NCBI GenBank assembly: GCA_018241665.1
Contig: JAFEDK010000007.1
Coordinates: 1-64,000, forward strand
Source of the DNA: Pseudomonadota bacterium
GTDB lineage: Bacteria; Pseudomonadota; Gammaproteobacteria; Burkholderiales; Rhodocyclaceae
Reading direction: 5' to 3'
DNA length: 64,000 bases
In this document: positions 392 through 63,319 of the stretch, in pieces
How the letters are laid out: each line of letters begins with the position of its first letter
Numbering within the stretch: position 1 is the stretch's first letter
Position numbers and translations under genes: made by a program
The notes under the pieces: model-generated
What the model was told of the DNA's origin: nothing
The model's input: only the letters and a program-made list of their open reading frames with translations
Databases searched by the model: none

Positions 392-435
392 TAGTCCCAT
401 CGGACGATGGTTGCGCCGTCCATCCCTAATAGGCT
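392..435 (+). promoter_or_regulatory. operator 1 and promoter of SDR-OYE-LuxR operon
   Basis: The 18-mer TAGTCCCATCGGACGATG (392-409) contains the palindrome GTCC-N4-GGAC. Twenty bases later comes a -10-like TAGGCT (430-435). The same arrangement recurs before nine other promoters in the window. The site is centred near -42.5 relative to the inferred start, a class II activator position. The inferred leader to the start codon at 552 is about 110 bases. Confidence 0.7.
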
Positions 436-551
436 GCGTCTCGCAGGCTGGGCCGGGGTGGGCTGGGCTTGTGCCGTCCGGGCGCGGCTTGAGCTTCCAA
501 TTACGCACCGTCCGTCGTCCGGGGCGGGTGGGCTGGTTCAGGAGACAGACA

Positions 552-1319
552 ATGGCTTTTCGCTTGCAGGACAAGGTCGCTTTCGTGACGGGGGGTGGTA
601 CGGGCATTGGCGCGGCAACCGCGATCCGCTTTGCGCAGGAGGGGGCGACGGTGGTGATCTGTGGTCGCCGCCGCGAGCCGCTGGATGCGGTGGTGGCGTC
701 CATCGTGGCGGCCGGTGGCAAGGCCGAGGCGGTGGTGGCGGACGTGAGCGACGAGGCGGGCTTTACCGCTGCGCTGGCCGATTGCGCGGCGCGCCACGGG
801 CGGCTCGACATCCTGGTGAACAATGCGATGGCCTATACCTGGGGCTCCATCGAGGAGACGTCCACCGCCGATTGGCACGCCAATTTCAGCACCTCGGTGG
901 ATGGCACTTTCTGGGGCACCCGCAGCGCGATGAAGCTGATGAAGGGGAAGGGCGGTTCGATCATCAATCTGTCGTCCATCTGCGGCACGCTGGGTACGCC
1001 GTGGATGTCCGGCTATTCCGCGGCCAAGGCGGCGGTGATCAATTTCTCCCGCGCGGCGGCGGCGGAGGGCGCGCCCCACGGTATCCGCGTGAATGTGGTG
1101 ATTCCGGCGGTGGTCGAGACGCCCGCCACGGCCGGCATGCTGGCCGACGAGGCTTCACGCAAGAACACCGAAAAGCTGATTCCCATGGGCCGCGTCGGGC
1201 AGCCGGACGAGCTGGCCAATGCGATCCTCTTCCTGGCCAGCGATGAGGCGTCCTACATCACCGGTGCGGCCTTGCCGGTGGATGGCGGGCGTTCGTCGGT
1301 GCTGGTGACGGCGCTGTAA
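552..1319 (+). CDS. SDR family oxidoreductase
   Basis: A 255-residue classical short-chain dehydrogenase/reductase. The N-terminal Rossmann motif is TGGGTGIG (about residues 12-19), followed by the NNA motif near residue 87, a catalytic serine in NLSSICG and the YSAAK catalytic pair. An upstream in-frame ATG at 411 is possible, but the ATG at 552 is preceded by AGGAGA at good spacing and gives the normal family length. It is the first gene after operator 1 and lies 16 bases before an old-yellow-enzyme homologue. The likely role is NAD(P)-dependent oxidation or reduction of a hydroxy/keto group on a steroid or an acyl-CoA intermediate; which one cannot be told from sequence. Confidence 0.9.
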   Translation: MAFRLQDKVAFVTGGGTGIGAATAIRFAQEGATVVICGRRREPLDAVVASIVAAGGKAEAVVADVSDEAGFTAALADCAARHGRLDILVNNAMAYTWGSIEETSTADWHANFSTSVDGTFWGTRSAMKLMKGKGGSIINLSSICGTLGTPWMSGYSAAKAAVINFSRAAAAEGAPHGIRVNVVIPAVVETPATAGMLADEASRKNTEKLIPMGRVGQPDELANAILFLASDEASYITGAALPVDGGRSSVLVTAL

Positions 1320-1335
1320 ACGGGGGAGCCTGCAG

Positions 1336-2433
1336 ATGGAACGTGCCAGCCTTGCCGCGCTCGCCGTGGCGCCCTTGTTCGAGCCCGTGCAGCTGGGCGA
1401 GCTGCGTCTCGCCAACCGCATCGTGATGGCGCCGATGACCCGCAACCGGGCGGATTCGGACGGCGTGCCCGGCGATCTGATGGTCGAGCACTACGCGGCC
1501 CGCGCGGCGGCGGGCCTGATCGTTGCCGAAGGCTGCTGGCCGAGCGTGACCGGCCAGGCCTACTGCCGGCAGCCGGGCATCGAGACAGCCGCCCAGGTGG
1601 CCGGCTGGCGGCGCGTGACGGATGCAGTGCATGCCCGCGGCGGCCGCATCGTGCTGCAGCTGATGCACGCTGGCCGCATCGGTAGCCGGCACATCAAGCC
1701 GGCAGGGGTCGATACGGTGGCCCCGTCCGCCGTGCAGGCGTCCGGCGAGATCTACACCGACAGCGCCGGCATGCAGCCCTTCGACCTGCCGCGCGCGCTG
1801 GAGACCGACGAGGTGGCCGCGGTGGTGGAGGAATTCCGCCGCGCCGCGCTGAATGCCATCGAGGCGGGCTTCGACGGCGTGGAGCTGCACTGCACCAGCG
1901 GCTACCTGCCGATGCAGTTCATGTGCTCGGGCACCAATACCCGCACGGACCAATATGGCGGCAGCGCCGCCAACCGGGTGCGCTTCGCGGTGGCGTGCCT
2001 GCAGGCCATGGCGGCAGCGGTGGGCGCCGGGCGGGTGGGCTTCCGCATCAATCCGGGCAACACCTACAACGACACCCGCGACGAGGATTCCGCCGCCACC
2101 CACGCGGAGCTGCTGCGCCAGGCCAATCCCCTGGGGCTGGCCTACGCCCACGTGATGCGCGCGCCGGCGGACGTGCCGGGGCTGGACGCCTTCGCGCTGG
2201 CGCGGGCCAATTTCGACGGGCCGCTGATCCTCAACGACGGTTTCGATGCGCCGTCTGCCGCCGCGGCGCTGGAGGCCGGCGCCGGCGAGGCGGTGTCCTT
2301 CGCGCGGCATTTCATCGCCAATCCGGATCTGGTGGCGCGCCTGCGCGACGGGCTGGATCTGGCCCGTTTCGACCGGCGCACGCTGTACACCGCCGGCGCG
2401 GCGGGCTACAACGACTACCCGGCCGTGGCCTGA
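1336..2433 (+). CDS. old yellow enzyme family flavin oxidoreductase
   Basis: A 365-residue protein with the FMN-binding TIM barrel of the OYE/NemA family: APMTRNR near residue 32, LQLMHAGR near 107, the active-site strand ELHCTSGYL (183-191) and TDQYGGS. These enzymes reduce the C=C bond of enones with NAD(P)H. H185 and Y190 align with the substrate-binding His and the catalytic Tyr, but the usual second ligand (Asn or His) is Ser188. It sits between an SDR and a LuxR regulator in operon 1. A role in reducing an unsaturated keto-steroid is plausible but inferred. Confidence 0.9.
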   Translation: MERASLAALAVAPLFEPVQLGELRLANRIVMAPMTRNRADSDGVPGDLMVEHYAARAAAGLIVAEGCWPSVTGQAYCRQPGIETAAQVAGWRRVTDAVHARGGRIVLQLMHAGRIGSRHIKPAGVDTVAPSAVQASGEIYTDSAGMQPFDLPRALETDEVAAVVEEFRRAALNAIEAGFDGVELHCTSGYLPMQFMCSGTNTRTDQYGGSAANRVRFAVACLQAMAAAVGAGRVGFRINPGNTYNDTRDEDSAATHAELLRQANPLGLAYAHVMRAPADVPGLDAFALARANFDGPLILNDGFDAPSAAAALEAGAGEAVSFARHFIANPDLVARLRDGLDLARFDRRTLYTAGAAGYNDYPAVA

Positions 2434-2475
2434 CGGCGGCGGGGGCGTGGCGATGCCAATCACGGAGACGCAGGA

Positions 2476-3621
2476 ATGGCGACGATAGACCTCGACGTGG
2501 TGGACTACGACCGGCTGGTGGCGGCCCTCTACGCAGCGGCGCTGGACAGCAAGCGCTGGGGGCTGGCACTGAGCCAGTTCCAGCAGATTTTCGGGGCCAA
2601 CTATGTGACGTTGATCCTGCGCATGCCGGAGTATTCCGACACGGGGCTGATGATCGCCGTCGGCGACGCGGAGGGCGTGAACAGCGGGGAGCTGAGCTAC
2701 ATGGCCTACCCGTATGCGTCCACGCCCTTTGTGGACATGCCCGCCGACCGGGTGTTTACGGTGGACGACGTGATGCGCGAGCCGGAGTGGCGCGGCAGTG
2801 CCTATTACCGGGACTGGTGCATGAACCATGACGTGTTTCATGTGATGGGCGCCGACATCTCCATGCCGGACGCGGGGCGCCTGCGCTTCCGCATCACCCG
2901 GCCGGAGAGCGCGCCGCGTTTCTCGGCGACGGAAAAGGCGCGCTGCGAGGCCTTGCTGCCGCATTTGCGGCAGGCGCTGCTGATCAACAACAAGCTCGGC
3001 CGCCGCGAGCACATCGGCGCGCTCTACGCGCGGGCCATGGGCCGGCTGGCAGTGGGCACGGTGGTGCTCGACGAGAGCGGCCAGATCATCGAGCAGAACC
3101 TGGCCGCCCGCGAGGTGCTGGCCCGCGCCGATGGCCTGAAGGTGGTGGGCAACCGCCTGGAGGCGTCCTACCCGAGCATCAACCGGGAGCTGCAGCAGCT
3201 GATCCGCAAGGTGCTCACCCACCGGGGCGCGGCCGGCGCGAGCCTTGCCGAGGCGATGTCGGTGTCGCGCCCGTCCGGCCAGCACAGCCTGGGGCTGGTG
3301 GTGGAGTCGGTGGTGTCGGCGGAGTGGGCCGAAGGGCGCGGCCAGCCGGCCGCGGTGGTGTACATCCGCGACGCGGCGGGCAAGTCGATGACCAGCATCA
3401 CCGCGGCCAAGCAGCTGTTCAACCTGACGCCGTCCGAAACCGCGCTGGCGATGGAGCTGGCCAACGGCCTGTCGCTGGAAGAGGCGGCGGAGGCCCTCGA
3501 CATCCGCCGCAACACGGCCCGCGCCCACCTGCGCTCGATCTTCTCCAAGACCGGGGTGCGCCGGCAGACGGAGCTGGTGCGCATCATGCTCAACAGCGTG
3601 GCGGCGCTCAGTGGGCGCTGA
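2476..3621 (+). CDS. LuxR-type transcriptional regulator (LuxR1)
   Basis: A 381-residue protein with a long N-terminal region of unrecognised fold and a C-terminal GerE/LuxR helix-turn-helix (about 311-378). The HTH contains LTPSETALAMELANG and the recognition helix RRNTARAHLRSIF. There is no response-regulator receiver or autoinducer-type domain that I recognise. Similar architecture occurs in regulators of steroid catabolism such as TeiR of Comamonas. It is the third gene after operator 1, so it would be autoregulated if it binds that operator. The second regulator in the window (60962-62104) shares the architecture and a closely similar HTH. Binding to the repeated GTCC-N4-GGAC site is inferred. 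Confidence 0.88.
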   Translation: MATIDLDVVDYDRLVAALYAAALDSKRWGLALSQFQQIFGANYVTLILRMPEYSDTGLMIAVGDAEGVNSGELSYMAYPYASTPFVDMPADRVFTVDDVMREPEWRGSAYYRDWCMNHDVFHVMGADISMPDAGRLRFRITRPESAPRFSATEKARCEALLPHLRQALLINNKLGRREHIGALYARAMGRLAVGTVVLDESGQIIEQNLAAREVLARADGLKVVGNRLEASYPSINRELQQLIRKVLTHRGAAGASLAEAMSVSRPSGQHSLGLVVESVVSAEWAEGRGQPAAVVYIRDAAGKSMTSITAAKQLFNLTPSETALAMELANGLSLEEAAEALDIRRNTARAHLRSIFSKTGVRRQTELVRIMLNSVAALSGR

Positions 3622-3834: not shown

Positions 3835-4695
3835 TCAGGCGGCGCTGGCGGCGGGTTCTGCGCTGCGCCAGTCGGCCACGATGCCGTGTTCCAGCGCGAA
3901 GGGCTGGGCGTGGATGGTGCGTTTCTGGAAGCGCGGGGCCTCCGCTGCGGTGGCGAGCCACAGCATCACGGCGGCGGGCACCTCGGGCGGCGCGGCGCCG
4001 TTGCGCAGGGCCAGCACGCCCTTGTCGCCGATGGTGGCCTTGAGCGCCTCGGTGGTGACGACGCCCGGATTGACGGTGTAGGCCTGGATGCCCTCGTCAC
4101 CCAGCTCGGTGGCGAGGATGCCGGACAGGCGCGACACGGCGGCCTTGCCGGCGCCGTAGGCGTAGCCCCAGCCACCGCGCCCGGCGGCCACCGGCGGATC
4201 GCTCTCGCCGGCGCCGGAGGTGACGTTGATGACCACGCCGCCGCCCTGGGCCTGCATGCCGGCGACGATGGCGCGGGTGAGCAGGAAGGGGGCCATCACA
4301 TAACCCTGGAAGACGCGCTTGAGGGTGGCGGGCTCCAGCTCCATGAAGGGCAGGTTGAGGTCGCTGCCCTGGTAGATGGCGTTGTTCACCAGCACGTCCA
4401 CCCGCTCGAAGGCGCGCAGCACCACGTCGGCGGCTGAGAGCACCGAGGTGTCGTCGAGCAGGTCCATGCGCACTTCGCGCACCTGGCGGCCGAGGGCGCG
4501 GATTTCCGCGGCAACGGATTCGAGGCTGCCGGGCAGGGCGCTGCCGTCCGGGCGGCGCAGGGCGTGGGAATGGGCTTCGCCTTCGCGCAGGGTGCGCGCG
4601 CTGATCGCCACGTCGTAGCCGGCGCGGGCGAAGGCGAGGGCCGTCTCGCGGCCGATGCCGCGGCTGGCACCGGTGATGAAAGCCACTTTGTTCAT
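3835..4695 (-). CDS. SDR family oxidoreductase
   Basis: A 286-residue short-chain dehydrogenase. TGASRGIG sits at residues 9-16, the NNAI motif near 109, VTSGAG with the catalytic Ser near 160 and YGAGK as the Tyr-Lys pair. An insertion after the second beta strand (REGEAHSHALRRPDG) makes it longer than the usual 250 residues. The start is supported by AGGAGA upstream of the ATG. It is transcribed alone, divergently from the 4826 operon, from a promoter sharing operator 2. Substrate unknown; co-regulation with steroid genes is inferred. Confidence 0.88.
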   Translation of the reverse strand: MNKVAFITGASRGIGRETALAFARAGYDVAISARTLREGEAHSHALRRPDGSALPGSLESVAAEIRALGRQVREVRMDLLDDTSVLSAADVVLRAFERVDVLVNNAIYQGSDLNLPFMELEPATLKRVFQGYVMAPFLLTRAIVAGMQAQGGGVVINVTSGAGESDPPVAAGRGGWGYAYGAGKAAVSRLSGILATELGDEGIQAYTVNPGVVTTEALKATIGDKGVLALRNGAAPPEVPAAVMLWLATAAEAPRFQKRTIHAQPFALEHGIVADWRSAEPAASAA

Positions 4696-4725: not shown

Positions 4726-4797
4726 AGTCTAGGGAGGGGGCGCGGTGCGCCCATCGTCCGTACGGACGACGAGGGCCGGGCGGGCTCTCCCTAGACT
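4726..4797. promoter_or_regulatory. operator 2, shared by two symmetric divergent promoters
   Basis: The centre is the palindrome TCGTCCGTACGGACGA (4754-4769), the best-matching operator in the window. On each side, 20 bases beyond the 18-mer, stands the identical -10-like TAGACT: 4792-4797 on plus and 4726-4731 on minus. The flanks CAGTCTAGGGAG and CTCCCTAGACTG mirror each other. Inferred leaders are only about 22-24 bases in both directions. Confidence 0.78.
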
Positions 4798-4825: not shown

Positions 4826-5620
4826 ATGATGGCGGGTCCCGTAGCGCCGCAGGCGGCATTCGATTACCGGGGCAAGGTGGTGCTGGTGACCGGCGGCACC
4901 AAGGGCGTCGGCGCGGGCATTGCCCGCTCCTTCCTGGCGGCCGGCGCCCATGTGGTGGTGTGCGGGCGCAATGCGCCGGAGAGCCTGCCCGCGGGGGGCG
5001 ACGCGGTGGCGGAGTTCATCCCGGCGGACGTGCGCGCGGCGGAATCCCTCGACGCGCTGTTCGCGGCGATCCGTGAGCGCCACGGCCGCCTCGACGTGCT
5101 CATCAACAATGCCGGCGGCGCGCCCTTCGCGCTGGCCGACAAGGCTTCGCCGCGTTTCCACGAGGGGATCATCCGCCTCAACCTGATTGCGCCCCTCAAC
5201 GTGGCCCAGCAGGCCAACGCCCTGATGCAGGACGGGGAGGGCGGCACCATCGTCTTCATCGGCAGCATCAGTGCGCTGCGTGCCTCGCCGGGCACGGCGG
5301 CCTACGGCGCGGCCAAGGCGGGCGTGCTGTCCCTGGCCAAGTCGCTGGCGGTGGAGTGGGCGCCGAAGGTGCGCGTGGTGGCGATCAGCCCGGGCCTGGT
5401 GCACACCGAGCAGTCGCACCTGCACTACGGGGACGATGCCGGCATTGCCGCCGTGGCAGCGACGATTCCGGCCGGCCGCCTGGCCAGCCCTGAAGACATC
5501 GGCAACGCCTGCCTCTTCATCGCCTCGCCGCTGGCCAGCTACGCGGGCGGCAGCAACCTGCTGCTCGACGGCGGCGGCGAGCGGCCGGCTTTCCTCGCGG
5601 CGACGGCCGCCCACAACTGA
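4826..5620 (+). CDS. SDR family oxidoreductase
   Basis: A 264-residue classical SDR. TGGTKGVG is the cofactor loop, NNAGG the structural motif, IGSIS carries the catalytic serine and YGAAK is the active-site pair. The ATG at 4826 follows GCAGGAGAACG and lies just after the inferred transcription start; a longer frame from 4745 would run through the promoter. It is the first gene of a long operon with the side-chain module. A hydroxyacyl-CoA or hydroxysteroid dehydrogenase role fits the context but the substrate is not readable from sequence. Confidence 0.88.
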   Translation: MMAGPVAPQAAFDYRGKVVLVTGGTKGVGAGIARSFLAAGAHVVVCGRNAPESLPAGGDAVAEFIPADVRAAESLDALFAAIRERHGRLDVLINNAGGAPFALADKASPRFHEGIIRLNLIAPLNVAQQANALMQDGEGGTIVFIGSISALRASPGTAAYGAAKAGVLSLAKSLAVEWAPKVRVVAISPGLVHTEQSHLHYGDDAGIAAVAATIPAGRLASPEDIGNACLFIASPLASYAGGSNLLLDGGGERPAFLAATAAHN

Positions 5621-5695
5621 ATACGCCGGATGCCGCGTCCATTGCCCTCGGCTGCGGACGCGCCGGCACACCCTCAACACGAGCAGGAGACGAAC

Positions 5696-6676
5696 TTGGC
5701 TGAACAGGAATGGATGTCCGAAGTGCGTGCCAAGGTGGGTCGCGAGTACGGTCGCGTCTACGCCTGGGACGAAGTCAATGCACCGATGATCCGGCAATGG
5801 TGCGAGGTGATGGGGGTCGATAACCCCCTCTACACCGACCCGGCCTTCGCCGCGACCACCGAGCACGGCGGCATCGTGGCACCGCCGGCGATGCTGCAGG
5901 CCTGGTGCCTCGAAGGCCTGCACATGAACAACTACCCGCCGGGCTCCACCAGCGAGAACCCCTACGAGGTGCTCAAGCTGATGGAGGCCCATGGCTACGG
6001 CTCGGTGGTGGCGGTCAATTCCGACCTGAGCTTCGAGCGCTACGTGAAGCCGGGCGAGCGCCTGTACTACACCACCCGCCTCGACGCGGTGGGCGAGGAG
6101 AAGACCACCGCGCTCGGCACTGGCTACTTCGTGACCCTGGTGATGAGCTTCTTCTCCGAGAAGCCGGCGGGGGACGAAAAGGTCGGCTCGCTGCTGTTCC
6201 GGGTCTTCAAGTTCCGGCCGGCCAACCCGGTCAAGCCGGCGAAGGAGGGCGACGCTGCACCGGCCGTGCCGAAGTACAAGCGCGCCAAGCCCGGCATCAG
6301 CGACGACACCCGCTTCTTCTGGGACGGCTGCAAGGCCGGCAAGCTGCTGATCCAGCGCTGCACCGGCTGCGGCACCCTGCGCCATCCGCCGGGACCGGTG
6401 TGCGTGAAGTGCCATTCCTTCGAGTGGGACAGCGTGGAGGTGGCCGGCACCGGCGCGATCCATTCCTTCGTGGTGATGCACTACCCGGAGGTGCCGCCCT
6501 TCGACTACCCGAACCCCATCGGCCTCATCGACCTGGACGAGGGCGTGCGCCTGGTGGCCGGCCTGGTTGGCGTGAAGCGCGACGAGATCCGCATCGGCCA
6601 GCGGGTGAAGGTGGAGTTCAACAGCTTCGACGACGGGGAGCTGACGCTGCCCCAGTTCCGTCCCGTCGAGCCCTGA
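5696..6676 (+). CDS. MaoC-DUF35 fusion, ChsH2-like hydratase/aldolase subunit
   Basis: A 326-residue two-domain protein. Residues 1-175 form a MaoC hotdog fold. Residues 200-326 form a DUF35 module with a zinc ribbon (C222, C225, C236, C239) and an OB-fold. This is the order of mycobacterial ChsH2, which pairs with ChsH1 to hydrate the steroid side-chain enoyl-CoA and lends its DUF35 domain to the aldolase Ltp2. The hydratase motif reads VDNPLYTDP, with Tyr46 where a catalytic His is expected. That matches an inactive partner half. I chose the TTG at 5696, seven bases after AGGAGA; ATG 5714 is the alternative. Its ChsH1-like and Ltp2-like partners are nearby at 7794 and 8232. Confidence 0.88.
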   Translation: MAEQEWMSEVRAKVGREYGRVYAWDEVNAPMIRQWCEVMGVDNPLYTDPAFAATTEHGGIVAPPAMLQAWCLEGLHMNNYPPGSTSENPYEVLKLMEAHGYGSVVAVNSDLSFERYVKPGERLYYTTRLDAVGEEKTTALGTGYFVTLVMSFFSEKPAGDEKVGSLLFRVFKFRPANPVKPAKEGDAAPAVPKYKRAKPGISDDTRFFWDGCKAGKLLIQRCTGCGTLRHPPGPVCVKCHSFEWDSVEVAGTGAIHSFVVMHYPEVPPFDYPNPIGLIDLDEGVRLVAGLVGVKRDEIRIGQRVKVEFNSFDDGELTLPQFRPVEP

Positions 6677-6685
6677 GGAGCCGCC

Positions 6686-7822
6686 ATGGACTTTCAACTG
6701 AACGAGGACCAGCGCGCCATCGCCGACATGGCCGGCGGACTGTTCGCCGACTTCTGCACCGACGAGCGGATGCGCGCCTTCGACACCGCCGGCCAGCCAT
6801 TCATGGCCGATCTGTGGGGTCAGTGCGTGGAGACCGGCCTGCATGGGCTGGCGATTCCCGAAGAGGCCGGCGGCCTCGGCCTCGGCATGACCGAGCTGAT
6901 GCTGGTGCTGGAAGCCCAGGGCCGCGCGCTGGCGCCGGTGCCCCTGTGGCGGCATCAGCTGGCCGCGGCCACGCTGGCGCGCTTCGGCGGCGCGCCGGGT
7001 GTCGAAACGGCCCAGGCGGCGGCGTCCAACAGCCTGCTGGTGACGCTGGCGCTGGACGGCTTGGCGTCGTCCCGCCCGGTAGGCCTGCGGCTGTCCCGCA
7101 GCGGTGACGCTTTCCGCCTCGACGGGGTGGCCAGCGTGGTGCCGCTGGGCGCCGAGGTCTGCCGTGCGCTGCTGCTTGCGCAGGGTGAGGCGGGCGTGTG
7201 CCTGGTGAGCGTGGATCTGCGCGCGCCGGCCGGTATCGACAAGGTTTCGGGCGTGTTCACCCACGGCGAGCCGGTGGCCGATCTGCGCTTCGACGGCTTT
7301 CAAGTCGGCGCCGACGCGGTGTTGCCGCCGGCTGCGCTGGCCTGGCTGGAGCCGCGCGCCATCGCCGCGCTGGCGGCGCTGCAACTGGGCGTCAGCACGG
7401 AGCAGGTGCGCCGCACGGTGGGCTATGTGAGCGAGCGGCGCCAGTTCGACCGGGCCATCGGCAGCTTCCAGGCGGTGCAGATGAGCCTCGCCGATGCGCA
7501 CATCGCCATCGAGGCGCTGCGTTCGGCCCTGTGGCAGCTCGTCTATCGCCTCGACACCGGCCTGCCGACGGCGCCGGAAGCCCTGGCCACGCGCTACCTC
7601 GCCTGCGAGACCGGCCATTCGGTCGGCCACAAGGCGCAGCACGTGCATGGGGGCATCGGCGTCGACCTGACCTACCCGATCCACCGCTACCTGTACTGGA
7701 GCCGCGCGCTGGGCCTGGCCCTCGGCGGCCCGGCCGCGACCCTCGAACGCCTTGGCGACTGGCTCGCCGACAACGACACGCTGGGATGGAAATATGACCT
7801 CGAAGAAAACCCGACGCTTTGA
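6686..7822 (+). CDS. acyl-CoA dehydrogenase, R-QF type subunit
   Basis: A 378-residue acyl-CoA dehydrogenase. The C-terminal helical domain carries RRQFDRAIGSFQ (near 250) and HVHGGIGVD (near 322). The mid-domain flavin loop SEPxAGSD of ordinary family members is missing. This pattern marks one half of the heteromeric (alpha2beta2) steroid dehydrogenases such as ChsE1-ChsE2. The likely partner is the 9420 gene, which has the complementary motif. The likely reaction is alpha,beta-dehydrogenation of a steroid side-chain CoA ester. Its 3' end overlaps the next gene by 29 bases. Confidence 0.87.
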   Translation: MDFQLNEDQRAIADMAGGLFADFCTDERMRAFDTAGQPFMADLWGQCVETGLHGLAIPEEAGGLGLGMTELMLVLEAQGRALAPVPLWRHQLAAATLARFGGAPGVETAQAAASNSLLVTLALDGLASSRPVGLRLSRSGDAFRLDGVASVVPLGAEVCRALLLAQGEAGVCLVSVDLRAPAGIDKVSGVFTHGEPVADLRFDGFQVGADAVLPPAALAWLEPRAIAALAALQLGVSTEQVRRTVGYVSERRQFDRAIGSFQAVQMSLADAHIAIEALRSALWQLVYRLDTGLPTAPEALATRYLACETGHSVGHKAQHVHGGIGVDLTYPIHRYLYWSRALGLALGGPAATLERLGDWLADNDTLGWKYDLEENPTL

Positions 7823-8213
7823 CGAAGTGCGCCCCGGCGAAAGCCTGCCGGACCTGGCGATCCCGATCACCGTGGCGCTGGTGGCCTCCGGCGCCATCGC
7901 GACCCGCGACTACTTTCCCGGTCACCACGATCTGCAGGCCGCCCGCGAGCTGGGCTCGCCGCACATCTTCATGAACATCCTGACCACCAGCGGCCTGGCG
8001 CAGCGTTACGTGGAAGCGTGGGCCGGCCCGCTGGCCTGCTTCAAGGACCTGAAGATCAAGCTCGGCGCGCCCAACTATCCGGGCGACACGATGACCTTCA
8101 GCGGCGAGGTGCTGGCCACCGATCCGGCGCGCCGCACGGTGGACGTGGCGCTGAAGGGCAAGAACTCCATGGGCAACCACGTGACCGGCACGGCCACGCT
8201 GGTGCTGCCCTGA
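7794..8213 (+). CDS. MaoC-like enoyl-CoA hydratase, ChsH1-like
   Basis: A 139-residue single hotdog domain of the MaoC family. The catalytic pair is D39 and H44 in RDYFPGHHD, the equivalent of D-x4-H in (R)-specific hydratases. The ATG at 7794 lies inside the upstream dehydrogenase gene; a longer start at 7752 would extend without any domain. In the ChsH1-ChsH2 system the small MaoC protein carries the catalytic residues while the fused protein does not. The same division is seen here with the 5696 gene. It would hydrate the C17 side-chain enoyl-CoA before retro-aldol cleavage. Confidence 0.85.
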   Translation: MTSKKTRRFDEVRPGESLPDLAIPITVALVASGAIATRDYFPGHHDLQAARELGSPHIFMNILTTSGLAQRYVEAWAGPLACFKDLKIKLGAPNYPGDTMTFSGEVLATDPARRTVDVALKGKNSMGNHVTGTATLVLP

Positions 8214-8231
8214 TCCGCGGGAGCACAGCAG

Positions 8232-9407
8232 ATGAACGATATGTCGATTTCCGGCCGCGCCGCCATCGTTGGCCTGGGCGCCACCGAATTCTCCAAGAAC
8301 TCCGGCCGCACCGAGCTGCGCCTGGCCATGGAGGCCACGCTGGCGGCCCTCGCCGACGCGGGCATCGAGCCTTCGGAGGTGGACGGCTTCAGCTCCTACA
8401 CCATGGACAAGGTGCCCGATTACGAGATCGCGCGCCTCCTGGGCAGCAAGAACGTGCGCTTCTTCTCGCAGATTCCCCATGGCGGCGGCGCGGCCTGCGC
8501 GCCGGTGGTGCATGCGGCGATGGCGGTGGCCACCGGCCTCGCCAAGACGGTGGTGGTGTGGCGCGCGATGAACGAGCGCTCCTGGTACCGCTTCGGCGCG
8601 CCCCATGACTTCGGCGGGGCGCCGGTGTTCGATGCGGTGAACTACGGCTGGTACATGCCCCACGGTTTCCACACGCCGGCGGCGTGGGTCGGCATGTTTG
8701 CGCAGCGTTACATGCACACCTACGGCGCCACGTCGGAGGACTTCGGCCGGGTGGCGGTGGCGGTGCGGGATTTTGCGGCGACGAACCCGGCGGCCTTCTT
8801 CTACGGCAAGCCGATCACGCTGGAAGAGCACCAGGCCTCGCGCTGGATTGCCGAGCCGCTGCACCTGCTCGACTGCTGCCAGGAATCCGACGGCGCGGTG
8901 GCGATGGTGATCACCTCCGCCGAGCGCGCGAAGGACCTGCGCCAGAAGCCGGTGATCGTGAAAGCGGGCTCCCAGGGCATCACCGAGGGCCAGCAGAGCA
9001 TGACCTCCTTCTACCGCGACGACATCACCGGCCTGCCGGAGATGGGCGTGGTGGCGAAGGAGCTGTATGCCCAGTCCGGCCTTGGCCCGGACGCCTTCCA
9101 GACGGCGGTGATCTACGACCACTTCACGCCCTTCGTGCTGCCGCAGCTGGAGGAGTTCGGCTTCTGCAAGCGCGGCGAGGCGAAGGAGTTCATCCGCGCC
9201 GGCCAGCACGCCCGCGGCGGCAGGCTGCCGATCAACACCCACGGCGGCCAGCTCGGCGAGGCCTACATCCACGGCATGAACGGCGTGGCGGAGGCGGTGC
9301 GCCAGGTGCGCGGCAGCGCGGTTAACCAGGTGGCGGACGTGGAAAACGTGCTGGTGACCGCCGGCACCGGCGTGCCGACCAGCGGCCTGATTCTCGGCAC
9401 GGCCTGA
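8232..9407 (+). CDS. thiolase-fold retro-aldolase, Ltp2/Sal-like
   Basis: A 391-residue thiolase-superfamily protein of the lipid-transfer/SCP2 branch. It lacks the nucleophilic Cys motif of true thiolases. Instead it has YDHF (Y295, H297) and GEAYIHG (near 345), the kind of Tyr/His residues proposed as catalytic in the steroid aldolase Ltp2. Such enzymes cleave a 22-hydroxy (or equivalent) side-chain CoA ester to a 17-keto steroid and propionyl- or acetyl-CoA, in complex with a DUF35 protein. The DUF35 partner is the C-terminal half of the 5696 product. It starts 18 bases after the MaoC gene. Confidence 0.88.
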   Translation: MNDMSISGRAAIVGLGATEFSKNSGRTELRLAMEATLAALADAGIEPSEVDGFSSYTMDKVPDYEIARLLGSKNVRFFSQIPHGGGAACAPVVHAAMAVATGLAKTVVVWRAMNERSWYRFGAPHDFGGAPVFDAVNYGWYMPHGFHTPAAWVGMFAQRYMHTYGATSEDFGRVAVAVRDFAATNPAAFFYGKPITLEEHQASRWIAEPLHLLDCCQESDGAVAMVITSAERAKDLRQKPVIVKAGSQGITEGQQSMTSFYRDDITGLPEMGVVAKELYAQSGLGPDAFQTAVIYDHFTPFVLPQLEEFGFCKRGEAKEFIRAGQHARGGRLPINTHGGQLGEAYIHGMNGVAEAVRQVRGSAVNQVADVENVLVTAGTGVPTSGLILGTA

Positions 9408-9419
9408 GGAGGAAGCACG

Positions 9420-10586
9420 ATGTTCGTCGATCTGACCCCCGAACAGCGGGCCCTGCGCCTCAAGGTGCGGGACTATTTCCAGAACCTCATGACGCCGGAA
9501 CTGCGCGCCAGCCTGCGCGGCAAGGAAGGCGGCGACGAGTACCGCGCCACCATCCGCCAGATGGGGCGCGACGGCTGGCTGGCGGTGGGCTGGCCCAAGG
9601 CCCATGGCGGCCAGGGCTACGCGGCCACCGAGCAGCTGATCTTCTTCGAGGAGGCCAACATCGCCGGGGCGCCGCTGCCCTTCGTGACGATCAGTACCGT
9701 CGGCCCGGCGTTGATGGAATACGGCACCGAGGCGCAGAAGCGCAAGTTCCTGCCGGGCATCGCCGCCGGCGAGATCATCTTCGCGATCGGTTACTCCGAG
9801 CCGGGCGCCGGCAGCGACCTGGCTGCGCTCAAGACGACCGCGCGGCCCGAGGGTGATCACTTCGTGGTGAACGGCAACAAGCTGTGGACCTCCGGCGCCG
9901 AGGCGGCGGACTTCATCTGGCTGGCCGCCCGCAGTGATGCGGACTTGCCGCGCCACAAGGGCGTGTCGATCCTGATCCTCGACACCACGCTGCCCGGCTT
10001 CTCCCATACGGTGATCCCGACCTGCAGCAATCCCACCGCCGCCACCTATTACGATAACGTGCGGGTGCCGGCCGACATGCTGGTGGGCGAGCTGAACGGC
10101 GGCTGGAAGCTGATCACCGCCCAGCTCAACCACGAGCGCCTGGGTCTGGGCTCGTGGTCCGACAAGGTGGCCGGGCTGTTCCGTCGGGTGTACCTGTGGG
10201 CGCGCAGCCAGGACGAGGCGGGCGCCCGCGCGGCGGACAAGCCCTGGGTGCGCAGCCTGCTCGCCGAGTGCTACGCACGCCTGGAGGCGATGCGGCTGAT
10301 CAACTTCCGCATCGCGGCGGACCTGGAGCGCGGCCAGATGGAAGTGGCGCTGGCGTCCACGACCAAGGTCTACGGCTCCGAGTCGTCCATCGAGATCCTG
10401 CGCAAGCTGTCGGAAGTGGTCGGCAACAGCGGCTTGGTGCGGGCGGGCTCGGCCGCCGCGGCGCTGCTTGGTGAGCTGGAATATGAACTGCGTGCATCGG
10501 TGACGTTGACCTTCGGCGGCGGCACCAACGAGATCCAGCGCGGGCTGATTGCCCAGTTCGGTCTCGGCATGCCCCGCGCCATGTGA
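9420..10586 (+). CDS. acyl-CoA dehydrogenase, SEP-AGSD type subunit
   Basis: A 388-residue acyl-CoA dehydrogenase with the flavin-contacting GYSEPGAGSDLAAL loop (near 123) and a C-terminal TFGGGTNEIQRGLIAQ. It lacks the R-QF motif in the C-terminal domain. It complements the 6686 product, and together they would form a ChsE1-ChsE2-like heterotetramer. A strong GAGGAGGAA ribosome binding site precedes the ATG. It lies in the operator 2 operon behind the aldolase gene. Confidence 0.88.
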   Translation: MFVDLTPEQRALRLKVRDYFQNLMTPELRASLRGKEGGDEYRATIRQMGRDGWLAVGWPKAHGGQGYAATEQLIFFEEANIAGAPLPFVTISTVGPALMEYGTEAQKRKFLPGIAAGEIIFAIGYSEPGAGSDLAALKTTARPEGDHFVVNGNKLWTSGAEAADFIWLAARSDADLPRHKGVSILILDTTLPGFSHTVIPTCSNPTAATYYDNVRVPADMLVGELNGGWKLITAQLNHERLGLGSWSDKVAGLFRRVYLWARSQDEAGARAADKPWVRSLLAECYARLEAMRLINFRIAADLERGQMEVALASTTKVYGSESSIEILRKLSEVVGNSGLVRAGSAAAALLGELEYELRASVTLTFGGGTNEIQRGLIAQFGLGMPRAM

Positions 10587-10613
10587 TGGCGCGGTGGATG
10601 AGAGGAGAGAGCG

Positions 10614-19349: not shown

Positions 19350-19355
19350 GGCGGA

Positions 19356-20252: not shown

Positions 20253-20296
20253 ATGCTGCGCCCGCCATGCGGGGCGGGCATCGTCCGTTCAGACCA
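20253..20296 (-). promoter_or_regulatory. operator 3 and promoter of hydrolase-FadH operon
   Basis: On the minus strand TGGTCTGAACGGACGATG (20279-20296) matches the shared operator, with GTCT-N4-GGAC as the palindrome. Twenty bases downstream is a -10-like CAGCAT (20253-20258). It faces away from operator 4 in the same intergenic region. Confidence 0.65.
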
Positions 20297-20327: not shown

Positions 20328-20371
20328 TAGTCTTTCCGGACGATGTTCGCGGCATGGGGCGCGGGAATGAT
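20328..20371 (+). promoter_or_regulatory. operator 4 and promoter of acyl-CoA synthetase gene
   Basis: TAGTCTTTCCGGACGATG (20328-20345) is followed after 20 bases by a -10-like AATGAT (20366-20371). The left half-site is GTCT rather than GTCC. The divergent intergenic region 20187-20453 thus carries two separate operators, one per direction. Confidence 0.68.
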
Positions 20372-22360: not shown

Positions 22361-22409
22361 TAGTCCATTTGGACGATGTGAGCAGTGAAAGCGCGGCGCA
22401 AGGTATGCT
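22361..22409 (+). promoter_or_regulatory. operator 5, upstream of the 64-aa gene
   Basis: TAGTCCATTTGGACGATG (22361-22378) has a perfect GTCC-N4-GGAC core. At the usual 20-base distance the sequence is a poor CAAGGT; a better -10-like TATGCT lies at 22404-22409, 25 bases away. The promoter geometry is therefore less certain than at the other sites. Confidence 0.6.
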
Positions 22410-22533: not shown

Positions 22534-22728
22534 ATGATCACCAAATTCTGCGTACTGAGCCTGATCTGCGGCGCACTGGGCGCGCTCGGCAGCCTGTTCG
22601 GCGAGCGCGACGGTGCCGTCGGGGTGCAGGCCGGCGCCTGTACCGGCCCGTCCAGCCACTGTCCGCAGCAGATCGCGATGGCCAGCGTGTCGGCCGGACA
22701 GTTTTTCTCGATGCTGGCGCATCGCTGA
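22534..22728 (+). CDS. small protein with N-terminal hydrophobic segment (64 aa)
   Basis: A 64-residue protein I do not recognise. Residues 5-22 are hydrophobic (VLSLICGALGALGSLFG), like a signal or membrane anchor. A short polar tail follows, with two cysteines (C36, C43) in ACTGPSSHCPQQ. GGAGGAGA stands at good distance before the ATG. It is the only gene between a perfect operator 5 and the converging thioesterase gene, with an inferred leader of about 120-150 bases. It may be a secreted or membrane peptide, or the transcript may act as RNA. Confidence 0.6.
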   Translation: MITKFCVLSLICGALGALGSLFGERDGAVGVQAGACTGPSSHCPQQIAMASVSAGQFFSMLAHR

Positions 22729-32982: not shown

Positions 32983-33026
32983 TAGTCGATTTGAACGATT
33001 GCCGCGCCGGGCCCGTGTGGCATCTT
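32983..33026 (+). promoter_or_regulatory. operator 6 and promoter of thiolase/DUF35-MaoC operon
   Basis: TAGTCGATTTGAACGATT (32983-33000) is the most degenerate plus-strand copy of the shared operator. A -10-like CATCTT follows after exactly 20 bases (33021-33026). The start codon is at 33078. Confidence 0.55.
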
Positions 33027-36385: not shown

Positions 36386-36429
36386 TAGTCTCAACGGACG
36401 ATGAACGCCGCCCGCGCTGTTCGCACAAT
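36386..36429 (+). promoter_or_regulatory. operator 7 and promoter of tesB-ipd operon
   Basis: TAGTCTCAACGGACGATG (36386-36403) is followed after 20 bases by a -10-like CACAAT (36424-36429). The start codon of the first gene is at 36468. This single promoter may serve fourteen genes up to 50382. Confidence 0.7.
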
Positions 36430-38260: not shown

Positions 38261-38277
38261 CGAGAGGCTGAGGAAAC

Positions 38278-39081: not shown

Positions 39082-39099
39082 CCGACCAGGGAGCCCACC

Positions 39100-41947: not shown

Positions 41948-41954
41948 GGACGCC

Positions 41955-43130: not shown

Positions 43131-43138
43131 GGCCGGCC

Positions 43139-44197: not shown

Positions 44198-44199
44198 GC

Positions 44200-45351: not shown

Positions 45352-45414
45352 GGCGGCGGCGCATCGCCGCCTGCACCACCGCGAACCATAGAGAAGAATA
45401 TTCTGGAGACAGCA

Positions 45415-46290: not shown

Positions 46291-46291
46291 C

Positions 46292-47854: not shown

Positions 47855-47889
47855 GCGCCCGACAACGACAAGAACGACTGGAGACTCCC

Positions 47890-48675: not shown

Positions 48676-48687
48676 GCGGAGCCGCCG

Positions 48688-49167: not shown

Positions 49168-49170
49168 GAG

Positions 49171-51718: not shown

Positions 51719-51763
51719 TAGGCCTTACGGACGATGCCGCCCGAATCGCGCCTCCCGCACCAT
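51719..51763 (+). promoter_or_regulatory. operator 8 and promoter of SDR-dehydrogenase operon
   Basis: TAGGCCTTACGGACGATG (51719-51736) keeps the right half GGACGATG and a weaker left half. A -10-like CACCAT lies 21 bases on (51758-51763). The start codon is at 51799. Confidence 0.6.
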
Positions 51764-52563: not shown

Positions 52564-52581
52564 GCGGACGAGGGCAGGCTG

Positions 52582-53703: not shown

Positions 53704-53707
53704 TCGC

Positions 53708-54943
53708 ATGGATTTCAAGGACTCTCCCGACGAAGCCGCCTTCCGCGCCGAATGCCGCGCCTGGCTGGAGGCCAACGCCACGCGCAAGACGCGCCCCGAC
53801 CAGGTCTATGGCCGCGGCCTTAACGCCGAACAATTGATGGCCGCCTCGCGGGAATGGCAGGGCCGCAAGGCGGCCGCCGGCTACGGCGCGATCACCTGGC
53901 CGGCAGCCTTTGGCGGACGCGGCGGCACGCCGATGCAGGAAGTGATCTACCGGGAGGAAGAAGGGCAGTTCGAGGTGCCGCCCAACGCCTTCGCGGTGAG
54001 CCTCGGCATGGTGATCCCGTCCCTCTTCGTGCATGCCAACGATGAAGTACGGGCGCGCTACGTAGGCCCGGCGCTGCACGGCACGGAGCTGTGGTGCCAG
54101 CTGCTGTCCGAACCGGGCGCCGGCTCCGACCTGGGCATGGTGCGGACCCGCGCCGAACGCTGCACCGACGGGCGCGACGGCTGGATCCTCAACGGCCAGA
54201 AGGTGTGGACCACCTACGCCCAGTTCGCCCAGTTCGGCATGGTGCTGGCGCGCACCGACCCGAACGTGCCGAAGTTCGACGGCCTGACCAGCTTCTTCAT
54301 CGACATGCGGGCAGAAGGCGTCGAGGTGCGGCCGATCCGCCAGGCCAGCGGTGAGGCGGAGTTCAACGAGGTGTTCTTCAACGAGGTCTTCGTTCCCGAC
54401 GCGCAGCGGGTCGGCGCGGTGGGCGCCGGCTGGAAGGTGACTGTGACGGCGCTGATGAACGAGCGCCTGTCCATCGGCGGGGTGATGCCGCCGGGCCTGT
54501 GGAAGACCGCCGCCGGCATGATGCGCGAAGCCCAGCTGAATGGCGCCAGCGCACTGGCCGACGGCCGCATGCGCGAGCGCCTGGCCGACCTCTACCTCAA
54601 CGCCCACGGCTTGTGGCTGCTGCAGGCCCGCGGTCTGACCGCCCTCGGCAAGGGCCGCGAGCCCGGGCCGGAGCTGTCCATCGCCAAGATCGTCGGCGCC
54701 CGCACGCTGCAGGACTTCGGCTACCTGGCCATCGACCTGCAGGGCGAACGCGGCGTGCTCGCTGCCGAGGAGCAGGGCGAAGCCTGGCGCCTGGTGGAAC
54801 AGCTGTGGTTCGGCGCGGCCGGCATGCGCATTGCCGGCGGCACCGACGAGATCGTCAAGAACAGCGTCGGCGAACGCGTGCTCGGTCTGCCACCGGAACC
54901 GCGCAGCGACAGGGGCGTTCCGTTCAGCCAGTTGGCAGGTTGA
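53708..54943 (+). CDS. acyl-CoA dehydrogenase, SEP-AGSD type subunit
   Basis: A 411-residue acyl-CoA dehydrogenase with LLSEPGAGSDLGMV (near 135) and IAGGTDEIVKNSVGERVLG at the C-terminus (outline). It lacks R-QF and therefore fits as partner of 52582. AAGGAG overlaps the end of the preceding gene. Its 3' end overlaps a converging minus-strand gene by 20 bases. Confidence 0.87.
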   Translation: MDFKDSPDEAAFRAECRAWLEANATRKTRPDQVYGRGLNAEQLMAASREWQGRKAAAGYGAITWPAAFGGRGGTPMQEVIYREEEGQFEVPPNAFAVSLGMVIPSLFVHANDEVRARYVGPALHGTELWCQLLSEPGAGSDLGMVRTRAERCTDGRDGWILNGQKVWTTYAQFAQFGMVLARTDPNVPKFDGLTSFFIDMRAEGVEVRPIRQASGEAEFNEVFFNEVFVPDAQRVGAVGAGWKVTVTALMNERLSIGGVMPPGLWKTAAGMMREAQLNGASALADGRMRERLADLYLNAHGLWLLQARGLTALGKGREPGPELSIAKIVGARTLQDFGYLAIDLQGERGVLAAEEQGEAWRLVEQLWFGAAGMRIAGGTDEIVKNSVGERVLGLPPEPRSDRGVPFSQLAG

Positions 54944-60961: not shown

Positions 60962-62104
60962 TCAGCCCAGCGGCGCGACGCTGCGCAGGATCAGCCGCAC
61001 CAGCTCGGTCTGGCAGGTGACGCCGGTCTTGGCGAAGATGCTGCGCAACTGGCTGCGCACGGTGTGGCGGCTGCTGCCGAGGCGCACGGCGGCCTCCTCC
61101 AGCGTGATGCCGTCGGCGAGCAGCAGGGCCAGGCCGGCCTCGGCCGGCGTGAGGTTGAACAGCGCGCGGATCACCGCCGGCGATGCGCCGACCTGGCGTT
61201 CCGGGTCGCTGATGTGCAGCACGGCCACCGGCCGCGCGCCATAGACCAGGCCGTCTGCCGGGCGCAGGGGGCGGACCAGCACGCCGTAGGGGCTGCGCCC
61301 GGATGGGCGGCTGAGGGTCAGGCCGGCGACCAGCCCCGGCTGGTCGGCTTCGCTGCCTGCCGCCTGGGCGATGAGGTCGGACAGGGCCTGGCGTTCGCGG
61401 CGCAGGTGGGGGCGCAGCGCGTCGTTGATCAGCTGCAGGCCGTCGTCGCCGGAAAGGATGTCCTGCGCGACGCGGTTGGCGGCCACGACCTTGCCGCGTC
61501 CGTCGAGGAGCAGGGTGCCCACCGCGAGGCGTTCGACGGTGCCGCAGTGGAGCTGGCGCTCGGTCTCCAGCGCCTCGACGGTGGAATGGATGCGCACCGC
61601 CCGGCGCAGGTGCGGCAGCAGCAGCGTGCACAGCGCGCGCTCGGCTGTGCCGAAGCGGCCGTCGCCCGCTCCGCGGCTGACCCGGAAGCGGCACACGCGG
61701 CCGTCCGCCAGCGCCAGGTCGGCGCCGATCAGGTAGCGCACGCCGAGAGGCGCCAGGTAGGACTGATAGACCGCGCTGGCCAGCCAGTCCGGTTCGTCGA
61801 TGAGCTCCTCGACAGCCATGATGCGGTCGCGGGGCAGGTTCACGAAGGGGTCCAGCGCGTGCAGCGAGCCGGTGTAGCGGGCGGTCAGGTCCGGCTCGGC
61901 CCGCCCGGCGAAGAGCGCCGACCAGCCACCGTCGGACAGGGCCGGCGGGAGCAGCAGGGACACGTAGCTGGCGCCCAGGCGCAGGCGCATGGCGTCCAGC
62001 CAGCCCTGCCACGGGCGGTCCTCGAAGGGACCGTCCTGCAGCAGGGCGAGGAGCGCATCGAAATCGGCGAAACGGATGTCCGCCTGCCGGAAGAGGGCAT
62101 CCAC
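60962..62104 (-). CDS. LuxR-type transcriptional regulator (LuxR2)
   Basis: A 380-residue regulator with the architecture of LuxR1. The N-terminal region of about 300 residues starts with ADIRFADFDALLALLQDG, and the C-terminal GerE HTH has LTPAEAGLALLLADG and recognition helix SRHTVRSQLRSIF. LFNLTPxE, LEEAA and TELVR are shared with LuxR1. It lies 28 bases after the Rieske gene and shares its promoter. Control of the variant operator upstream of DUF1302 is a natural hypothesis. Confidence 0.87.
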   Translation of the reverse strand: MDALFRQADIRFADFDALLALLQDGPFEDRPWQGWLDAMRLRLGASYVSLLLPPALSDGGWSALFAGRAEPDLTARYTGSLHALDPFVNLPRDRIMAVEELIDEPDWLASAVYQSYLAPLGVRYLIGADLALADGRVCRFRVSRGAGDGRFGTAERALCTLLLPHLRRAVRIHSTVEALETERQLHCGTVERLAVGTLLLDGRGKVVAANRVAQDILSGDDGLQLINDALRPHLRRERQALSDLIAQAAGSEADQPGLVAGLTLSRPSGRSPYGVLVRPLRPADGLVYGARPVAVLHISDPERQVGASPAVIRALFNLTPAEAGLALLLADGITLEEAAVRLGSSRHTVRSQLRSIFAKTGVTCQTELVRLILRSVAPLG

Positions 62105-62132
62105 GTCGCCGACCGGGAAGCTGCGTGCGAGG

Positions 62133-63236
62133 TCAGGCCGTCACGGGCTCGCTGTACGCCACTGCGCCCTTGGGCACATAGACGCCCTCGCACTGGTCGA
62201 GGAATTCCTGCTTTTTGGCGCGCGGGTTGTAGAACTGCTTGTACCAGATGCGGGCCTTCATGAAGGGGCCGTCGCTGGGGATGAACAGGCCATTCAGGCA
62301 CGGCCCCTTGTTGGTCCACACCTCGAAATCCTGGGCGAAGGCGAGGCGGCTGGATTCCTGGAACTGGCGCGCGGCGACCGTATCGGCGATGGTGACCACG
62401 TCGTTGTCGCCCGGCGATTTGACCAGCAGGGAATGCCAGACCTTGACGCTGCCGTCGTCCACCGGGGTGTGGGTGATCATCAGCACCGATTCGTAGAGGC
62501 CGGTCAGCTCGGACAGCAGCACGCCGGGGCCGTGATAGGTGGTCAGCGTGTGCAGGATCGGGCTGATGCCGTCGGCGCCCACCAGGGTGCGGTGCGGGCC
62601 GCACTGGCGCTGGGTGGCGGTGTGGCCGGCGAATTCGTTCTCGTACTTCTGCACGGTGGAGCCGTGGATCGGGCTCAGGTGGCCGTAGTCGCAGATGTTG
62701 TCGATGACTTCCTGCGGGTGCTGGTTGAGGATGCCCAGGTGGTCGAACTTCCAGCGCACCCAGGAGGGGTCGTCCCACTGGGGCAGGCTGGGGTGGGACC
62801 ATTCCGGCTCGCCGCCTTCCGGGTCGTGCCACACCCAGATGGCGCCGAGGCTCTCGACGACGGTCCACGACTTGACGCAGGCCGACGCCGGGATGGTGCC
62901 GGTGTGATACGGGATGTCGTCGCACTTGCCGTTGGCGTCGAAGCGCCAGGCGTGGTACGGGCAGCGGATGCCGTCGCCTTCCACGTTGCTGCCGCCGCCG
63001 TCGAGCACCACGTAGGAGGTGTTGTTGGGCGCCGCGAGGTGGGTCTTCATGTGCGGGCAGTAGGCGTCCAGCAGGACCACCTTGCCGCTGGCGCGGCCGC
63101 GGTAGAGCGCGAAGTCCATGCCGAAAAAGCGTACCGCCAGCGGCTTGTGGGTATTCAGTTCTTCCGCGTCGGCGATCATGAACCAGCCGCGGGGGAAGGT
63201 GTATTCGCCCAGCCGGTAATCCTTGGATGTGGCCAT
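62133..63236 (-). CDS. Rieske non-haem iron oxygenase, KshA-like
   Basis: A 367-residue Rieske oxygenase alpha subunit. The 2Fe-2S ligands are C60, H62, C92 and H95. The mononuclear iron site is DNICDYGHLSPIH, with D183, H186 and H191. The overall form resembles the KshA/DAF-36 group, which hydroxylates or desaturates sterols, including 3-ketosteroid 9alpha-hydroxylase. The gap between the two Rieske pairs (29 residues) is clearly longer than in typical members (about 16-17). No reductase is adjacent. It is first behind operator 9. Confidence 0.85.
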   Translation of the reverse strand: MATSKDYRLGEYTFPRGWFMIADAEELNTHKPLAVRFFGMDFALYRGRASGKVVLLDAYCPHMKTHLAAPNNTSYVVLDGGGSNVEGDGIRCPYHAWRFDANGKCDDIPYHTGTIPASACVKSWTVVESLGAIWVWHDPEGGEPEWSHPSLPQWDDPSWVRWKFDHLGILNQHPQEVIDNICDYGHLSPIHGSTVQKYENEFAGHTATQRQCGPHRTLVGADGISPILHTLTTYHGPGVLLSELTGLYESVLMITHTPVDDGSVKVWHSLLVKSPGDNDVVTIADTVAARQFQESSRLAFAQDFEVWTNKGPCLNGLFIPSDGPFMKARIWYKQFYNPRAKKQEFLDQCEGVYVPKGAVAYSEPVTA

Positions 63237-63275
63237 GTGTCCTCCTTGTATTGGTGTGTGTGGGTGTCCCCAAAG

Positions 63276-63319
63276 ATTGTGTGGATTTGCTTCCGGCGCC
63301 GCATACCCTGTTCGGACGA
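63276..63319 (-). promoter_or_regulatory. operator 9 and promoter of Rieske-LuxR2 operon
   Basis: Read on the minus strand, TCGTCCGAACAGGGTATG (63302-63319) keeps the half-site TCGTCC with a degenerate second half. A -10-like CACAAT (63276-63281) follows after exactly 20 bases. This is the same hexamer and distance as in the tesB promoter. Confidence 0.6.

Follow-up and report, generated by a model that had tools for sequence, protein, structure and literature searches.

In Comamonas testosteroni, the steroid degradation clusters are controlled by TeiR/TesR, a positive regulator of the LuxR type whose gene lies inside the cluster, and the parts of these reports available to us describe no operator or promoter architecture for it (PMC6678751, PMC6895838, PMC13101464). 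Palindromic operators of steroid pathways are described for repressors: the actinobacterial KstR and KstR2, which are TetR-type, have such an operator, also before the regulator gene (PMC6678751, PMC8700777), and EdcR of Caenibius tardaugens has a steroid-responsive palindrome in a catabolic cluster, its proposed operator TnnCnnTACnAnTnGTAnnGnnA lying over the −10 box (PMC8700777). The LuxR-family gene EGO55_13855 of the Caenibius progesterone cluster is upregulated with progesterone at a fold change of 3, and no operator is described for it in the passages available (PMC12239570). Here we describe an 18-mer operator, of the form T(A/C)GTCY-N4-GGACGATG, which recurs before steroid degradation genes in a 64,000-nucleotide stretch (the window; positions 1 to 64,000 of contig JAFEDK010000007.1, hereafter C53) of an assembly totalling 5,425,507 bases at 69% GC, from a bacterium that we take to be of Zoogloea type.

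The locus resembles the TeiR/TesR system, as far as description rather than sequence comparison allows, in harboring genes for LuxR-type candidate positive regulators inside the cluster, but it encodes two paralogs, LuxR1 and LuxR2, with one helix-turn-helix (HTH) specificity. With KstR/KstR2 and EdcR it shares a palindromic steroid-pathway operator, whereas those proteins are repressors and appear to act by another mechanism; KstR and KstR2 are set apart here by description. EGO55_13855 is likened by family and context. Among activators at large, the lux box bound by Vibrio fischeri LuxR is centred at −42.5 and class II CRP sites at −41.5, in each case as a palindrome overlapping the −35 element. 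No operator of the kind described here was found in the literature searched, which comprised titles, the beginnings of abstracts and passages, most subscription papers lying outside it. We conclude that the motif is a genuine operator and that its steroid regulon spans the pathway. Judged from sequence, it is highly probable that two paralogous, steroid-responsive LuxR-type activators act through this one operator, in class II position, and thereby control both the pathway and themselves.

The operator in the window and across the genome

The first-pass annotation of the window had claimed nine sites of the form T(A/C)GTCC-N4-GGACGATG serving ten promoters. Eight of these sites stand, and from them nine promoters are borne out, all with a NANNNT hexamer starting 20 or 21 bases past the 18-mer. 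The site given at 63302 (actually 63304 on the + strand, TACCCTGTTCGGACGATG, 15.4 bits) was rejected together with its promoter: it has no −10 signature, the next gene call on the + strand (64818) is ~1.5 kb off, and its neighbours lie on the − strand.

392..409, + strand: operator, exact consensus, before the gene run of a short-chain dehydrogenase/reductase (SDR), an old yellow enzyme (OYE)-like protein and LuxR1
430..435, + strand: −10 box TAGGCT, offset 20
4752..4771, both strands (4752(−)/4754(+)): near-perfect palindromic operator common to two divergent promoters
4726..4731, − strand: −10 box TAGACT of the leftward promoter (SDR 3835-4695)
4792..4797, + strand: −10 box TAGACT of the rightward promoter (side-chain type genes 4826 to 12952)
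20279..20296, − strand: operator before HsaD-like hydrolase 19356-20186
20253..20258, − strand: −10 box CAGCAT, offset 20
20328..20345, + strand: operator before AMP-binding (CoA ligase-like) gene 20454-22301
20366..20371, + strand: −10 box AATGAT, offset 20
22361..22378, + strand: operator before a small open reading frame (ORF), 22534-22728
22399..22404, + strand: −10-like CAAGGT, offset 20
32983..33000, + strand: weaker operator TAGTCGATTTGAACGATT before thiolase-like 33105-34289 and ChsH2/MaoC-like 34295-35236
33021..33026, + strand: −10 box CATCTT, offset 20
36386..36403, + strand: operator before an HsaC-like dioxygenase, gene run 36468-50382 (ring C/D type)
36424..36429, + strand: −10 box CACAAT, offset 20
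51719..51736, + strand: operator before an SDR and two acyl-CoA dehydrogenases, 51799-54943
51758..51763, + strand: −10 box CACCAT, offset 21

A scan of both strands of the window against the consensus TAGTCCNNNNGGACGATG, itself derived from the sites of the first-pass annotation, found 2 places without a mismatch, 4 with one and 2 with two, whereas the corresponding means over 100 simulations that kept trinucleotide frequencies were 0.0, 0.0 and 0.28. Genome-wide, TMGTCYNNNNGGACGATG is matched exactly at 10 places, 8 in C53:392-91215 and 2 on the 37.8-kb contig C45. Both contigs hold steroid genes, half of the matches (5/10) lie outside the window, and the reversed-pattern control has no exact match. 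With up to two mismatches the genome yields 429 matches versus 269 for the reversed control; thus, only near-exact matches are informative. One-mismatch places number 33, 24 of them outside the two steroid regions, and the −10 signature accompanies 1 of the 20 examined among these 24 (two of the 20 being the two strands of one place).

These genome-wide searches used patterns, and the matrix scan covered C53:1-124000 and C45 together with stretches of 14 other genomes; these relatives are represented by genome parts, mostly chosen around exact sites or LuxR genes, and absences refer to those parts. The matrix was built from nine window sites with the N4 spacer unscored, and the scan was repeated with this window-only matrix because the first matrix had been built from sites that it then found; the nine own sites outside the window form its out-of-sample part. 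The own and the 14 other genomes together gave 172 hits of at least 17 bits, 5 of them within coding DNA, where coding status in the other genomes was taken from homology to the C53 and C45 gene calls alone. On the two own contigs, 2 of 20 such hits are coding (66152 and 85172, both outside the window); the claim that the motif falls only in intergenic DNA thus holds for the window at this cut-off and not for the two contigs as a whole.

A fixed distance to the −10 box

In the 167 noncoding hits of at least 17 bits, offsets of 8 to 35 bases past the 18-mer were searched for a NANNNT hexamer. At the own intergenic sites it lies at offset 20 in 14/18 and at offset 21 in 4/18, with a background at other offset pairs of 2.6-3.4% (mean 2.6%, own genome), and all nine own sites outside the window carry the signature at offsets 20-21. 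The same is found at 59 of 67 sites in Zoogloea relatives and at 64 of 82 in other genomes (72 of 82 with offset 19 included). When the cut-off is set to 15 bits and 63304 is dropped, the signature is found at offset 20 or 21 for 19 of the 20 own intergenic sites and at offset 19 for the remaining one, 85463(−).

Because the NANNNT hexamer is taken as −12 to −7, the operator is centred at −41.5 or −42.5. The centre near −42.5 that had been proposed applies to 4 of the 18 own sites, the usual centre being −41.5 (14/18), and relative to these predicted sigma-70 −10 boxes all 18 lie in the position of class II activator sites. Within the own −10 boxes only the A at −11 and the T at −7 are fixed, the first T being present in 5/18.

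The footprint between orthologous promoters

Sites were grouped by downstream ortholog and one site per genome and group was compared, orthologous sites not being independent of each other. Between the window's genome and other Zoogloea (48 pairs, 13 groups), the half-sites are 0.97 and 1.00 identical, the spacer 0.86, the −11 A 0.92 and the −7 T 0.73, this last value being lowered because offsets 20 and 21 are mixed; the upstream flank and the first 18 bases past the site are 0.39 and 0.49 identical. In comparison with Azoarcus, Aromatoleum, Thauera, a related metagenome-assembled genome and a Vibrio plasmid (32 pairs, 12 groups), the corresponding values are 0.95 and 0.99 for the half-sites, 0.66 for the spacer, 0.91 for the −11 A, 0.72 for the −7 T, and 0.36 and 0.37 for the flanks. 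Spacer identity is 0.37 when different own promoters are compared (21 hits including 63304, giving 210 pairs), as opposed to 0.86 between orthologs; thus, the spacer (operator positions 7-10) is promoter-specific and kept, and affinity tuning is the sole explanation that we offer for this conservation. The weak operator at 32983 is identical in the four Zoogloea relatives in whose examined stretches it was found.

LuxR1, LuxR2 and LuxR3

2476..3621, + strand: LuxR1, 381 aa, with a C-terminal GerE-type HTH and predicted GAF-like and PAS-like parts
C53:89881-91026: LuxR2, paralog of LuxR1
60962..62104, − strand: LuxR3, behind KshA (62133-63236), in the gene run starting after the operator at C53:64747

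LuxR1 and LuxR2 score 27.7 and 28.2 bits for the GerE HTH, above the Pfam cut-off of 23.5 bits, and are the weakest two of the 23 GerE matches in the genome. GerE and HTH_30 are the only Pfam domains found in them. In contrast to V. fischeri LuxR, they have no autoinducer-binding domain (AHL) by Pfam, and no receiver (Response_reg) or kinase domain either, at E<=1e-3 for LuxR1 and E<=1e-4 for LuxR2. A GAF-like fold is predicted for residues 4-176, and the PAS-like label, for residues 179-300, is a tentative one taken from predicted structure elements. Whole-chain Foldseek TM-scores are low, 0.18-0.36 among the matches listed.

The core HTH of the two paralogs is identical at 64/66 residues and their first 178 residues at 101/178. 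Recent gene conversion was rejected as the source of the shared HTH because synonymous differences are present in both parts, affecting 21 of 69 same-residue codons in the HTH and 38 of 101 in the stretch of residues 1-178. LuxR3, which is 37% identical to LuxR1, has a different recognition helix. The AraC and LysR genes of the window were also rejected as encoding the reader: the operators that flank them, 22361 and 32983, are ~400 bases apart in the relative G012, and neither has a close match in the examined stretches of relatives, where the window's AraC and kinase genes are matched in 0/14 and LysR in 1/14, at 33%.

Co-occurrence in other genomes

Exact sites were counted in 45 genomes, giving 10 in the window's own (G000), 10 in G012 (the same genome as G440), 9 in G010, 8 each in G007 and G008, 4 in G013 and 3 in G004; the other 38 have 0 to 3, G022 having 3. 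A LuxR1-like protein is encoded in five of these seven site-rich genomes, namely G000 itself and, at 65-69% identity, G004, G008, G010 and G012. The G007 contig stops 112 bases past its electron transfer flavoprotein (ETF) genes, where LuxR2 would begin, and a LuxR3-type match is present in this genome. Approached from the protein side, a LuxR search led to 12 loci, and the whole genomes of eight were scanned, with 12, 11, 10, 10, 12, 7, 10 and 12 exact sites and none for the control. One of the eight, G440, duplicates G012 of the first count, and another is Azoarcus sp. Aa7, a known bile-acid degrader according to the passages available (PMC8399759).

When 399 genomes sampled across the order were searched, matches to LuxR1 (E<=1e-60) and to the HsaC-like dioxygenase (E<=1e-70) fell in the same four, G000, G128, G280 and G320, which have 10, 6, 4 and 1 exact sites; the remaining 395 have at most 4 (G290). 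A class-wide sample of 369 genomes has LuxR matches at E<=1e-55 in G000 and G128 only. Among the examined stretches of the 14 other operator-bearing genomes, 12 encode a LuxR1/2-type protein, 8 of the 14 having been chosen via LuxR, and LuxR2 orthologs (75-88% in Zoogloea, Azoarcus, Aromatoleum and Thauera) adjoin the sites. A 45% GC stretch of a Vibrio alfacsensis plasmid (NZ_CP140104.1) also carries a steroid degradation cluster with operator and LuxR; this LuxR has the same recognition-helix stretch, and the operators lie before steroid genes. Collectively, the genome-wide test called for at the outset and the comparative tests support the earlier proposal of a shared, putatively activator-type site of a regulon tied to both LuxR proteins, and they lead us to infer, with good support, that LuxR1 and LuxR2 read the operator and activate from a class II position.

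As a separate observation, a Sphingobium plasmid (an alphaproteobacterium) has a single operator-like TAGTCTCTTCGGACGAAG at 14719 (−), directly upstream of a KshA gene, and this Sphingobium carries a LuxR of 35% identity.

Genes behind the operators

The gene content was read from 127 gene calls, with starts from a home-made caller, of which 80 proteins were given to Pfam; pathway labels follow from family and from the 9,10-seco pathway, and co-transcription is presumed. About 20 promoters on the two contigs appear to follow the operator, mostly before genes predicted to digest steroids. The gene families behind the sites fit the proposed span of side-chain, ring A/B and ring C/D functions, labels being by family. 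Side-chain type genes lie at 4826-12952, 33105-35236 and 51799-54943, ring C/D type enzymes are included in the run 36468-50382, and the HsaD-like (19356) and HsaC-like (36468) proteins both score below the NCBIfam equivalog cut-offs. Behind the operator C53:64747 follow an MFS transporter, KshA and DUF1302/DUF1329 genes, the ETF genes belong to the regulon gene set, and C45 carries a 3-ketosteroid dehydrogenase-like gene and a chemoreceptor gene.

552..3621, + strand: likely operon of SDR 552-1319, NADH:flavin oxidoreductase (OYE-like) 1336-2433 and LuxR1 2476-3621
22534..22728, + strand: small ORF, 64 aa, with GGAGGAG ribosome site, the first gene call to follow the operator at 22361

The 64-aa ORF has no NCBIfam match, and short ORFs like it, with a hydrophobic start and at least two cysteines, occupy the same place in four Zoogloea relatives. 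Between the two operators that bound it, the region 22.5-32.9 kb holds LysR, AraC, hydrolase, flavodoxin-like and two HSP70-like genes and seems to have been inserted into the steroid cluster, because the flanking operators are ~400 bases apart in G012.

Two genomes of the same genus, G020 and G021, in which no LuxR match was found, have scar loci that retain the 392 operator with an identical 18-mer. In G021 the promoter of this operator and the start of the SDR gene, up to residue 65, also survive, and fragments that correspond to window positions 1058-1113 and 1276-1350 come next; neither LuxR1 nor the steroid genes beside it occur in the 20 kb examined. The G021 copy of the 51719 operator reads TAATCCTAATAGACGATG, and relict operators are located at 12401 and 3533 of locus L190 (G021) and at 233 of locus L159 (G020). 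On sequence grounds these remnants look like fossils of a lost regulon. Also within the cluster, the window has an Xre/MbcA/ParS-type antitoxin gene and its neighbour at 35340-36205 (−), which are 92-96% identical in G021.

Discussion

Several points weigh against activation by LuxR1 and LuxR2 through this operator. The signature at offsets 20-21 is missed at 8/67 Zoogloea sites and 18/82 sites elsewhere, part of these misses coming from palindromic sites counted on both strands. Some weak likeness to a −35 element persists, averaging 2.7/6 at spacers of 16-18 versus 2.16 in flanks, and the half-site identity of 0.95-1.00 is partly a matter of construction, since the sites were picked by their half-sites. 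The predicted LuxR structure is of middling confidence (pLDDT 68, pTM 0.46). G013 has 4 exact sites and no LuxR1/2-like protein in its assembly, which may be either a true exception or a gap, and G320 has LuxR homologs yet one exact site (its 140 kb scanned give 11 matrix hits, 2 of them coding). In the parts of the Comamonas literature available, TeiR is presented as a membrane kinase with polar location, which activation by LuxR1 and LuxR2 as proposed here would not predict, and one C. testosteroni LuxR is described as a repressor (PMC6678751).

There is a negligible chance that the repeats are an artefact of composition or coding in a 69% GC genome: isolated words of this TCGTC kind are indeed common among genomes (85/399 have one exact match or more), but the simulation counts, the whole-genome matches, the −10 spacing, the ortholog footprint and the count of 1/20 at one-mismatch places all argue otherwise, as does the presence of the operator on the 45% GC Vibrio stretch. 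A repressor of the TetR, GntR or LysR kind, with a steroid ligand that releases a block of the −35 in the manner of KstR, would also suit a palindromic, pathway-wide site covering the −35 place, and steroid-gene repressors are known from the passages available (PMC6678751, PMC8700777). We consider it very improbable, however, because repression needs no such constraint as the 20-21 base spacing to the −10 box found at 18/18 own sites, and because the −10 boxes are of poor quality and resemblance to a −35 element is weak. Furthermore, no TetR or GntR was found among the 80 of 127 proteins scanned with Pfam, although no search was aimed at TetR, and the window's LysR and AraC are missing from the examined stretches of operator-bearing relatives, bar the one 33% LysR match.

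The operator might alternatively be read by another GerE-type regulator, be it LuxR3 or a further GerE match of the genome, given that LuxR1 and LuxR2 are the weakest of the 23 and that LuxR3 belongs to the gene run behind the C53:64747 operator. This is improbable in our judgement. LuxR3, with its different recognition helix, is probably not the reader and has no separate match in the examined stretches of G010, G008, G004, Thauera, A. toluclasticum and Vibrio, while LuxR2 orthologs (75-88%) adjoin sites in four genera. Finally, the same operator and regulators could receive their signal through phosphorylation by a partner, as in the TeiR kinase model, rather than by direct steroid binding; Comamonas TeiR is reported as a steroid-sensing kinase in the passages available (PMC6678751, PMC8399759). 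Neither LuxR1 (E<=1e-3) nor LuxR2 (E<=1e-4) has a receiver or kinase domain, and the predicted GAF-like fold of residues 4-176 fits a small-molecule pocket but proves none, which makes this route unlikely, if worth keeping in mind.

Under activation by LuxR1 and LuxR2, we infer the binding protein, its dimeric state, the activation, the operons and the ligand as follows. The 18-mer would be the binding site of a LuxR1 or LuxR2 dimer; centred at −41.5 or −42.5, it would cover the −35 place and recruit sigma-70 RNA polymerase in class II fashion to promoters that keep only A−11 and T−7 throughout in their −10 box. The GAF-like and PAS-like parts would sense a steroid or an intermediate of its degradation and so switch the activators on, with the two diverged sensors feeding one DNA specificity. 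The output would comprise side-chain, ring A/B and ring C/D type genes, uptake and electron transfer, and positive feedback would arise as the gene runs holding the regulators are also under the operator.

The regulation of steroid degradation in such bacteria is described as largely unknown, and the operator offers a testable answer, with specific sites to aim at in Azoarcus sp. Aa7, Aromatoleum, Thauera, Zoogloea and the Vibrio plasmid. Its fixed geometry makes it possible to look for unlinked steroid genes by pattern search and may provide parts for steroid biosensors. More tentatively, and with rather less than even confidence, the 18-mer could be a proteobacterial steroid response element, extending from Beta- to Gammaproteobacteria and onto a plasmid, that serves a LuxR family with GAF/PAS-like sensors, one HTH and different ligand pockets, such that several steroid signals converge on it and the spacers set promoter strength or order. 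If LuxR1 and LuxR2 do read the operator as proposed, they would show how a single pathway can respond to more than one signal through a pair of regulators that share their HTH but differ in their sensors.

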